From an uncultured Thalassovita sp. (GTDB lineage Bacteria > Bacteroidota > Bacteroidia > Cytophagales > Flammeovirgaceae), in assembly GCA_937129345.1 (NCBI GenBank), contig CAKZMZ010000141.1, forward strand, positions 1 through 33,223: 33,223 nt of DNA, written 5' to 3'. This document shows, in pieces, positions 16,876-22,045 of this stretch (its first letter is position 1; every line of letters begins with the position of its first letter). Under the pieces are notes generated by a model. It was not told the DNA's origin. It searched no databases and was given only the letters and a program-made list of their open reading frames with translations. Position numbers and translations under genes: made by a program.

Positions 16876-17339
16876 TGCTATCTGATTTTGGTTATATTTT
16901 ACTTTTCATTTTAGGTGGACTGATGTTTTTCAGCATTAGTATGTTCGTGGCTTTTCTGATACGGCCGCAACGCCCAAATGAAGAAAAGCAAACTACTTAT
17001 GAGTGTGGCGAGGATCCTGTAGGAAATGCTTGGGGCAGGTTTAATGTGCGTTTTTATGTAATAGCTTTGATTTTTATTTTGTTTGATGTAGAAATCGCTT
17101 TTATGTTTCCTTGGGCTGTAATATTTGCCGATAATCAGTTAGTACAAGAGACTCAGGGTACTTGGTTGTGGTTTGTTTTCGGTGAGATGCTTCTCTTTAT
17201 ATCGATTTTATTGATCGGACTCATTTATGCATGGCAAAAAGGCTTTCTAAATTGGGATAAGCCCATAGCAAAAGTGCCCGATTTTAAATCAAAAGTGCCT
17301 AATGATTTGTACGAAAAGTTAAACAAAGAATACAGCTAA
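16875..17339 (+). CDS. nuoA: NADH-quinone oxidoreductase subunit A
   Basis: 154 aa; 'TTYECGEDPVGNAWGRFNVRFYVIALIFILFDVEIAFMFPWAVIF' is diagnostic for NuoA; TAATG overlap with the upstream gene. Confidence 0.95.
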   Translation: MLSDFGYILLFILGGLMFFSISMFVAFLIRPQRPNEEKQTTYECGEDPVGNAWGRFNVRFYVIALIFILFDVEIAFMFPWAVIFADNQLVQETQGTWLWFVFGEMLLFISILLIGLIYAWQKGFLNWDKPIAKVPDFKSKVPNDLYEKLNKEYS

Positions 17340-18079
17340 TTTAGATAAGAGTCCAATTCAGAAAAGGGGTCGCTCTCAGGAAAAAGTGCTCGAACGGTTT
17401 TGCCCGCTCTAATATTTTTGAGTTCAAGCCCTATAATGCCTTTATGACTCTGTGCTATTTTTGCTCCGGTGCTCAATGTTTGCCAATCTTCCCAAGAAAA
17501 TTTTACTCCACCAACTGGTATGATCGACACCCACATTTTGCAGTAAACTGGCAAGTGATTTTCATCTAACCCCCAAAGGTATTTGTCGCCTGGTGTTACG
17601 CCACCACCATGGTATAAAACTAGCAAAGCTTGCTCTCCGTTTTCAAGCTCAACCAATTGCCTTTCGGTCCCGCCGTCTCTTATTTTAGCGGGCGCATTTA
17701 GCCAAAATGAGTCGTTTGCCCAGTATTCCCAAGCGGTTTGTATCAAATCGCTCGCTTCACTACTTGAAACTTGTTCTCCATTTTTGTAGGCCAAACCCTT
17801 TAAGCTGTCTATCTGGAACACTACTGTATAATCATCCCATTGCACTCTAGCAAAGTGTCTTTTTTTATCCCAAGTATGCAGGTGCCCACCGGGAAATTCC
17901 CAAGCAATTATTTCGGTATTTTGCCAATCATCATAATTTATGGCATTGAGCATTTTATCGGCGAGCAATTCTGCTTCTTTTCCTTTTTTGCCTTGAGGTA
18001 CGGGCTCATCTACTATAAAGAAAAAGACAAGACCTACAGTTATGAGTATGATAATAGTTAAAAGTATTTTCTTTATCAT
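17336..18079 (-). CDS. Hypothetical membrane-anchored protein
   Basis: 247 aa; single N-terminal TM 'ILLTIIILITVGLVFFFIV'; no domain confidently recognised. Confidence 0.6.
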   Translation of the reverse strand: MIKKILLTIIILITVGLVFFFIVDEPVPQGKKGKEAELLADKMLNAINYDDWQNTEIIAWEFPGGHLHTWDKKRHFARVQWDDYTVVFQIDSLKGLAYKNGEQVSSSEASDLIQTAWEYWANDSFWLNAPAKIRDGGTERQLVELENGEQALLVLYHGGGVTPGDKYLWGLDENHLPVYCKMWVSIIPVGGVKFSWEDWQTLSTGAKIAQSHKGIIGLELKNIRAGKTVRALFPESDPFSELDSYLN

Positions 18080-18125
18080 TGTGCTTTTATGTTTTTGCGT
18101 TTAGGGCATTTTAAACAATTCAAGT

Positions 18126-18166
18126 TTGTATATGTTGTTATTGTAAGACATAACTCTTATATACAA
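18126..18166. promoter_or_regulatory. Candidate operator: nested dyad in the promoter region of the MerR/B12 regulator
   Basis: TTGTATAT (18126-18133) / ATATACAA (18159-18166) enclosing GTTAT (18137-18141) / ATAAC (18150-18154), centred at about 18146. Confidence 0.4.
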
Positions 18167-18222: not shown

Positions 18223-19131
18223 TTGAGCACCTATTCAATTAGAGATTTGGAGCACTTAACAGGTATCAAGGCCCATACCATTAGGATATGGGAGCAGAGA
18301 TACCATATCATTAAGCCCAAGCGTACAGACACCAACATCAGATATTACGATTCTGATGATTTGAAGCTTATGCTCAATATATCCTTGCTCAATAATAATG
18401 GATATAAAATATCTAAGATTGCGAAGATGAGCAAAGAAGAACTTTATGAAAAAGTGCTTCAAACAATCAATAAAAACAATAATTATTCTGACCAAATAAG
18501 CGGTTTAACGGTAGCGATGATTGACCTCAACGAGGAACAGTTCGAAAAAATCATGGCGACCAATATATTGCAATTAGGATTTGAAAATACAATGCTTAAT
18601 ATTGTTTTTCCTTTCCTTACCAGAATTGGTTTCTTGTGGCAAATAGATTCTATTAATCCGGCACAAGAGCACTTTATTACCAACCTTATTAGACAAAAAT
18701 TAATTGTTGCTATTGATGGGCAATACAATAATTACCAAAACCCTAATAAGAAAAAATATATGTTGTTCTTGCCAGATGGTGAGCTACACGAGATAAGCTT
18801 ATTGTTTTCTGCTTATCTAATAAAAGCAAGGGGTAACCATATCATTTATTTGGGTCAAAGTATGCCAATTGAAGATGTGGCTGAAGCTTACAAGATACAC
18901 AAGCCTGACTACTTGCTTACCATCATCACCTCTGTGCCTGAAGCAGAATACATACAAGCCTATGTTGATACATTGGGAGAGACTTTTGATGAATCAGAGG
19001 TATTGTTATCGGGTTATCAAGTTGTTGGTCAGGATTTGGCCACTTCAGAGAATGTACATATCATAACTCACTTTAAATATCTGATTGAGTTTGTTGATAA
19101 CAACACAGTAGCAGTAGAAAAAAACTATTGA
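18223..19131 (+). CDS. MerR family transcriptional regulator with cobalamin (B12)-binding domain, CarH/LitR-like
   Basis: 302 aa, TTG start; MerR HTH 'YSIRDLEHLTGIKAHTIRIWEQRYHIIKPKRTDTNIRYYDSDDL'; W-x9-EH motif 'WQIDSINPAQEH'; B12-binding-like 'LFLPDGELHEISLLFSAYLIKARGNHIIYLGQSMP'. Confidence 0.9.
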   Translation: MSTYSIRDLEHLTGIKAHTIRIWEQRYHIIKPKRTDTNIRYYDSDDLKLMLNISLLNNNGYKISKIAKMSKEELYEKVLQTINKNNNYSDQISGLTVAMIDLNEEQFEKIMATNILQLGFENTMLNIVFPFLTRIGFLWQIDSINPAQEHFITNLIRQKLIVAIDGQYNNYQNPNKKKYMLFLPDGELHEISLLFSAYLIKARGNHIIYLGQSMPIEDVAEAYKIHKPDYLLTIITSVPEAEYIQAYVDTLGETFDESEVLLSGYQVVGQDLATSENVHIITHFKYLIEFVDNNTVAVEKNY

Positions 19132-19206: not shown

Positions 19207-20529
19207 TTACGGTTGGAACAATTTGTAAATATCATTACCAAAGGCAAAGACCATAAGGCAAAGCAGCAATACCATTCCTACTTTTTGAGAGGCTTCTAAA
19301 AAACTATCAGAAGGTGGCCTGCCAGAAACTATCTCATAGGTTAAAAATACAACGTGACCGCCGTCTAACGCAGGTATGGGCAGTAAATTCATAAAGGCCA
19401 ATACCATGGAGAGCATGCCGGTTATGGTCCAGAATTTCACCCAATCCCAAGTGCCTCCAAAAAACTTGGCAATGCCTATAGGGCCACTGAGTGACTTACT
19501 AGGTGATACTTCACCTTTAAAAATTTTATTAAAGGCTTTCAGCTGTACAATTATTACAGAAAAAGCATCAATAGTACCTCTTGGTATAGACTCTGCAAAT
19601 GTATATTCTTTGGTAGAAGGTTCTAATAATGATTTTGGGTAAAACCCGACTTTACCCTCTTCGCTAACAAAGACTTCTAGTTCTCTTTGTTCGCCATTTT
19701 TGCCTTTCACCAGCATGCTAACATCTTTACCTGCTTTATCTTGGAGCACACTTGAAAACTCATGAAAATATTCTATTTCCGTATCGTTTACTTTCAAGAT
19801 CTGATCTCCTGCCTTTAATCCACCAGAAGAAGCCGGAGAGTTGGCCATAACGCTATCCACCACGAAAGGCTCTCTAAAACCAATGAAATTTCTGTTGGCT
19901 TCGTTATCGCTGAGGCGTTCGATAAAATTGGTTGGTATCTCGATATCGAGCAACCTGCCTTCGCGTTCAACAGTGTAGTAACTTCCGCTCTCTAATAAAA
20001 AGTTAGGGTTTCTGATATCATTTGAGTTATCGAAGTCCTGCCCGTTTATTTTAACGATTTTATCCCCGTCTTTAAGCCCGATTTCCTCTCCTAGTTCATT
20101 TACGTAAATGCCATACTTGTTTACTTCTTTAATGGAATAATAAGATTCTCCCAAAAGATAGACTAAGAAAATAAATACGATAATGCCGGTTACTACATTT
20201 ACTATAATGCCACCGAGCATGACAATAAGTCGTTGCCAAGCTGGTTTTGATCTAAACTCCCAAGGTTTGGGTTCAGATTTCATTTGATCGCTATCGAGTG
20301 ACTCATCGATCATACCTGAGATTTTTACAAATCCTCCTAAGGGCAAAGCTCCTAAGGAGTATTCTGTTTCGCCCATTTTCACACCAAAAAGCTTAGGAGG
20401 AAAACCAATAGAGTATTTTTCCACGCGCATTCCAAAAACTTTTGCTGCAATGAGGTGCCCTAACTCATGCAGGCCTACTAAAATAGATAAGCCTAAGAGT
20501 AGTTGCGCTGTCATTATCAGTCCTTCCAT
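19207..20529 (-). CDS. rseP: RIP metalloprotease RseP (site-2 protease, two PDZ segments)
   Basis: 440 aa; 'GLHELGHLIAAKVFGM' (HExxH-like zinc site), PDZ-like segments, 'GPIGIAKFFGG', 'NLLPIPALDGGHVVFLTYE'. Confidence 0.94.
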   Translation of the reverse strand: MEGLIMTAQLLLGLSILVGLHELGHLIAAKVFGMRVEKYSIGFPPKLFGVKMGETEYSLGALPLGGFVKISGMIDESLDSDQMKSEPKPWEFRSKPAWQRLIVMLGGIIVNVVTGIIVFIFLVYLLGESYYSIKEVNKYGIYVNELGEEIGLKDGDKIVKINGQDFDNSNDIRNPNFLLESGSYYTVEREGRLLDIEIPTNFIERLSDNEANRNFIGFREPFVVDSVMANSPASSGGLKAGDQILKVNDTEIEYFHEFSSVLQDKAGKDVSMLVKGKNGEQRELEVFVSEEGKVGFYPKSLLEPSTKEYTFAESIPRGTIDAFSVIIVQLKAFNKIFKGEVSPSKSLSGPIGIAKFFGGTWDWVKFWTITGMLSMVLAFMNLLPIPALDGGHVVFLTYEIVSGRPPSDSFLEASQKVGMVLLLCLMVFAFGNDIYKLFQP

Positions 20530-22006: not shown

Positions 22007-22045
22007 AAGCGGCTTCTCCAAGCGGCTTCTCCAAGCGGCTTCTCC
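22007..22045. repeat. Tandem repeat, 3 x 13 bp (AAGCGGCTTCTCC)
   Basis: Three perfect consecutive copies at 22007-22019, 22020-22032, 22033-22045. Confidence 0.9.

Follow-up and report, generated by a model that had tools for sequence, protein, structure and literature searches.

We predict that the MerR-B12 protein encoded in the window, the 33,223-nucleotide stretch of DNA analyzed here, is an adenosylcobalamin (AdoCbl)-dependent, light-released repressor of the CarH/LitR type that acts in trans on a dyad-bearing carotenoid (crt) operon. We put the probability of this reading at about 70%. The regulator (REG) is a member of a widespread Bacteroidota branch within the known family. We class it as a Bacteroidota form of the CarH/LitR-type MerR-B12 regulators, probably CarH-like in its action, and as a probable B12-based light sensor switching on pigment and light-protection genes from a distance. 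Features of the window are as follows.

17336 to 18079, minus strand: divergent gene for a hypothetical protein that matches no family, probably unrelated
18111 to 18118, no strand assigned: single half-site TTAAACAA upstream of REG, 0.02 expected in the 143-bp gap
18223 to 19131, plus strand: MerR-B12 (CarH/LitR-like) regulator gene (REG), open reading frame with a TTG start, 302 aa
18229 to 18435, plus strand: MerR winged-helix DNA-binding domain, aa about 3-71 (PF13411, aa 4-71)
18637 to 18672, plus strand: Wx9EH motif W139-E149-H150, WQIDSINPAQEH; the His132 position of Thermus CarH is occupied by Gln140
18781 to 18789, plus strand: ExH lower-ligand motif E187-L188-H189, within GELHEIS
19207 to 20529, minus strand: rseP, incidental neighbor, convergent with REG, not beside the regulator in the orthologous loci L003 and L053
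20639 to 21850, minus strand: dxr, incidental neighbor, preceded by neither an operator dyad nor a half-site

Pfam, structural modeling and Foldseek all describe the same architecture, a MerR DNA-binding domain followed by a four-helix bundle and a Rossmann B12 domain. An earlier note, made from the DNA letters alone, had recognized the MerR helix-turn-helix and the B12-binding domain, and both are confirmed by Pfam matches (MerR_1, E = 8.8e-16; B12-binding_2, E = 1.1e-6) and by the CarH-like model. Residues R21, W23, E24, R26, R34, R40 and Y42 of the MerR domain are invariant in 44 relatives, and in L003, the closest relative, the regulator gene has its TTG start codon at the equivalent position. 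REG is the sole MerR-B12 protein of its 6.2-Mb genome. The AlphaFold model that the note had suggested as a check of CarH/LitR likeness, built on a 44-sequence family alignment, is confident (pLDDT 91.9), and its best PDB matches are full-length CarH in dark, DNA-bound and light forms (5c8d and 5c8e, E about 1e-14), followed by CarH B12 domains and CtMerR of Chloracidobacterium. The CarH B12 domains superpose on about 200 residues of the model with TM-scores of 0.82-0.86 by target length. The modeled fold is that of CarH. Thermus thermophilus CarH (PDB 5c8d/5c8e/5c8f) shares the domains, the fold, the Wx9EH motif and the ExH lower ligand with REG, but the two proteins are only about 22% identical and REG has Gln for the upper ligand His132. 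Because REG scores 85.6 bits against the NCBIfam CarH equivalog NF052513, below its curated cut-off of 400, we do not count it among the strictly defined CarH orthologues.

The Wx9EH motif and lower-ligand histidine reported in the note withstand alignment: WQIDSINPAQEH of REG aligns column for column with WHRGEIGVAEEH of Thermus CarH, so that the W/EH residues fall on the capping residues, and GELHEIS aligns in the same way with GERHEIG at the lower-ligand position. Among 58 aligned relatives, W and E are kept in all 58, and H150 and H189 are each kept in 52, a conservation that rules out a chance Wx9EH motif. Besides REG, the genome encodes two other proteins that bind B12 as well as a cobalamin adenosyltransferase (E = 1e-62), which makes AdoCbl plausible as the cofactor. 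One alternative is that REG is a B12-independent, CarA-like repressor with a relic domain, relieved by another signal such as an antirepressor, singlet oxygen or a LOV partner. CarA and class II LitR do function without B12 (PMC9304148, PMC9758184), and the classic B12 motif, D/ExHx2G/Px41SxT/Vx22-27GG (PMC9304148), reads as incomplete and partly matched in REG, where ExH is present, S192 stands for G/P, T236-S-V238 stands for SxT/V at x43 and S263-G264 replaces GG. We consider this alternative improbable, given that REG and 52 of the 58 relatives retain W, E, H150 and H189 and that the adenosyltransferase is present. Myxococcus CarA is likewise a MerR-B12 domain repressor of crt genes, with inverted repeats in its operator, but it lacks the Trp of Wx9EH; REG differs from CarA in that W139 is present and the motif intact. 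Class II LitR does not bind B12 and works with a LOV partner (PMC9758184); it is marked by loss of the Rossmann B12 domain and by a short LOV gene next to it. The REG model retains that domain, and the REG neighbors examined include no LOV gene; REG differs from class II on both points. In the Saprospiraceae homologues L009, L011, L015, L016, L017 and L018, the EH histidine (H142) is replaced by N, S or Q and the lower-ligand histidine (H177) by Q, the two being lost together, which suggests a B12-independent branch and is a further point for the CarA-like alternative.

The residue after the motif tryptophan is Q140, as the note had stated, and its statement that H132 of Thermus CarH ligates cobalt after photolysis is correct (PMC10442372, PMC8156234). 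A His at this position is widespread, though not general, among CarH photoreceptors. The substitution is not peculiar to REG. The corresponding residue in 58 relatives is Q in 29, L in 12, T in 6, V in 5, I in 4 and S and M in one each; because none carries His, Gln represents the state of the lineage rather than an oddity of this protein. In Thermus CarH, the H132A substitution largely blocks light-driven dissociation of the tetramer, leaving mostly tetramer after aerobic light (PMC10442372), so the light switch could be weaker without His132. This result, together with the Q, L, T, V or I found at position 132 throughout the lineage, would fit a protein that is AdoCbl-dependent but not effectively light-dependent, that is, a sensor of coenzyme B12 (or of B12 and oxygen) in which photolysis without H132 brings about no dissociation. 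We think this unlikely: CtMerR, with Arg at position 132, passes from tetramer to monomer in light, SasPcob, with Gln, still photolyses AdoCbl (PMC11796333), and the dyads described below precede photolyase, rhodopsin and pterin genes, as expected of a light regulon. By analogy with these proteins, a light response without bis-His is possible in REG. CtMerR (8jbs/8jbt) resembles REG in being of the MerR-B12 photoreceptor type without His132 and in giving a similar fold match, although the residue is Arg there and Gln here. Because position 132 is Gln, we propose that the light state of REG would be water- or hydroxo-cobalamin (or Glu-assisted) rather than bis-His. If this is true, the lineage provides many natural His132-free variants with which to probe the need for bis-His in light-driven release.

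The genes around REG are arranged as nuoA(+), hypothetical(-), REG(+), rseP(-) and dxr(-), which agrees with the neighbors listed in the note. Its observation that carotenoid and photolyase genes are missing nearby is true locally, as neither turned up in the set of flanking genes inspected (roughly 14.7-21.9 kb of the window), but both are present elsewhere in the genome, and the crt partner is preceded by an operator-like dyad. The note had also hinted at dxr as a target. Adjacency and the isoprenoid link are what would favor REG as a local regulator of rseP-dxr that tunes isoprenoid supply, a reading to which we assign very little probability: rseP is convergent with REG, dxr lies on its far side, and neither an operator nor a half-site precedes dxr. 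Nor did the suggested comparison of synteny among relatives favor it, as the rseP-dxr adjacency is absent in both close orthologues; that in L003 (PBYL01000156.1; 88% identical) shares nuoA alone of the window neighbors, and that in L053 (79% identical) shares none of those tested. Because adjacency is not kept, we regard nuoA, rseP and dxr as incidental and rejected dxr and rseP as REG targets. Two repeats in the window were recorded in passing. At 22007-22045, about 150-200 bases upstream of dxr, a 13-bp unit (AAGCGGCTTCTCC) is repeated perfectly in tandem, in three copies, and an inverted pair, TTGTATAT (18126) and ATATACAA (18159), spans 18126-18166 upstream of REG and has no support from relatives. 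A search for RNA families gave no match.

Association with carotenoid genes is evident among the relatives. The merR gene adjoins an ECF sigma gene in 10 relative loci, with crtI-crtB next in nine and sigma alone in one; a Caroten_synth (CruF-type) gene lies just upstream of the regulator in 16 loci, and a crtZ-like gene is upstream in six, one of them from REG's own family. REG's lineage has no carotenoid-gene neighbors beside the regulator, and the ECF sigma-crtI-crtB operon of its genome is on contig C16, unlinked to REG. The regions upstream of the sigma genes have a dyad in common, TTGTTTAA-N16-TTAAACAA. Of 11 sigma promoters, the one of REG's own genome among them, 10 match it at 14/16 or better with a spacer of 16; other spacer lengths between 6 and 26 give 0-4 promoters, and a Markov-resampled control gives 0.0045 per promoter. 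The site at the crt operon of REG's genome, TTGTTTAA-TTGTTACTACATTTGT-TTCAACAA (C16:8497-8528), matches at 15/16. The Bacteroidota -7 promoter consensus is TAnnTTTG, and TACATTTG within this dyad fits what we take to be that consensus. TAnnTTTG occurs in 16 of the 75 exact dyads listed for the order, mostly at position 16-17, against 2.6 (sd 1.5) expected with shuffled spacers. Because the dyad covers the -7 box, binding there should block RNA polymerase, and we propose a repressor design.

In the mechanism that we favor, in which AdoCbl binding, the light response, the oligomer change, direct binding to the dyad and the sign of regulation are all predicted, AdoCbl would be held in the dark between the four-helix bundle, capped by W139, E149 and H150, and the Rossmann domain, with H189 as lower ligand. 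The AdoCbl-bound oligomer would bind TTGTTTAA-N16-TTAAACAA over the unlinked ECF sigma-crtI-crtB promoter and repress it; in light, cleavage of the Co-C bond would cause the oligomer to fall apart and release the operon in trans. REG's own promoter has one half-site only, which may possibly serve weak autoregulation.

Only two sites in REG's genome match the dyad with no more than one mismatch, and both precede CrtI-family genes or their operon. As about 0.7 such sites are expected by chance from base composition, the count alone is not striking, but the positions are. The second site (C466:1488-1519, equivalent to L122:1488-1519) lies three bases before a gene for a CrtI-like FAD oxidoreductase that is divergent from ptpS-folE (genes at L122:223-2992), with a half-site also before ptpS; the CrtI-like and ptpS-folE genes would be a probable second target. 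Dyads with up to two mismatches are no more common than in the control (15 vs 17), and for this reason the analysis was limited to sites with no more than one. The genome has three photolyase loci, none with a strong dyad; photolyase loci with exact dyads were seen in relatives.

Across the order, exact dyads are present in 69 of 148 genomes, compared to 3 of 148 for a reversed control. They occur in 67 of 119 genomes with REG and 2 of 29 without it (Fisher p = 6e-7), a test that is partly confounded in that many genomes without REG are small and may have no crt genes at all; both dyad-bearing genomes without REG are incomplete assemblies (75% and 81%). Among the sites listed, 19 of 75 lie within 2 kb of a regulator gene, and BLAST placed 20 of the first 30 listed site loci next to sigma/crtI, REG, photolyase or folE/ptpS genes. 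Alternatively, the dyad could be the site of another regulator, such as a partner of the ECF sigma factor, and the MerR protein could have a different target. Sigma promoters have the strongest dyads, one half-site alone stands before REG, and the geometry differs from that of published CarH operators, which are tandem 11-bp direct repeats with a TnnACA core (PMC8156234). However, exact dyads stand directly before REG genes in L143 and L147 with no sigma gene between, the dyad co-occurs with REG across genomes, and it is symmetric, unlike a sigma promoter, with a half that carries the TnnACA core known from CarH repeats. We judge another regulator to be an outside chance. The autoregulatory sites in L143 and L147 favor the dyad as the MerR protein's own site; it is probably the DNA address, or operator, that REG reads, and control of crt genes by REG has comparative support.

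The arrangement of this putative operator separates REG from the systems that it otherwise resembles. The half-site TTAAACAA contains TnnACA in an inverted dyad with an N16 spacer rather than in direct repeats, and REG is not beside its putative target, unlike Thermus CarH. Class I LitR/CarH of Bacillus and Myxococcus share with the REG family the AdoCbl-type signature residues and, across relatives, the crt association, but here the partner ECF sigma is encoded with crtI-crtB, and operator sequence and geometry differ. The class II LitR operator is T(G/A)TACA-N12-TGTA(C/T)A (PMC9758184). A direct repeat, TTAAACAA-N16-TTAAACAA, was rejected, as REG's genome has no excess over control. TnnACA cores around dyads (30 site loci and L021) were separated by 11 bp in 3 cases vs 0.8 expected, and a CarH-like direct-repeat periodicity does not stand out. 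On one strand in the same set, a 21-bp separation occurred 19 times vs 0.7 expected, perhaps an effect of the dyad's own sequence, extended to TTGTTTAACA. In the open-access literature, to which the search was confined, we found no paper that describes a CarH/LitR protein from Bacteroidota or links the TTGTTTAA dyad to carotenoids; as far as this literature shows, the inverted N16 geometry is new.

If our reading is true, B12 photoreception would be extended to Bacteroidota, together with a specific operator sequence and a set of predicted target genes. There is perhaps an even chance that much of the phylum uses His132-free CarH-like B12 photoreceptors, with an inverted N16 dyad over the -7 box, to control a light-protection regulon of sigma-crtI-crtB, photolyase, pterin/folate, rhodopsin, fasciclin and DUF4397 genes. 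The class II LitR (PplR/PmlR2) regulon of Pseudomonas, which responds to light and includes photolyase, FolE and an FAD-dependent oxidoreductase, overlaps the predicted REG targets. The dyad pattern could help to identify genes under light control whose role is unknown, such as those for fasciclin and DUF4397 proteins, across Bacteroidota. An exact dyad at L137:1501, from another genome of the order, precedes a bacteriorhodopsin-family gene at 1600-2349 (PF01036, E = 5.9e-42), and exact dyads in L129, L130, L135, L138 and L152 precede genes for secreted proteins with DUF4397 and fasciclin domains, which are candidate light-controlled surface proteins.
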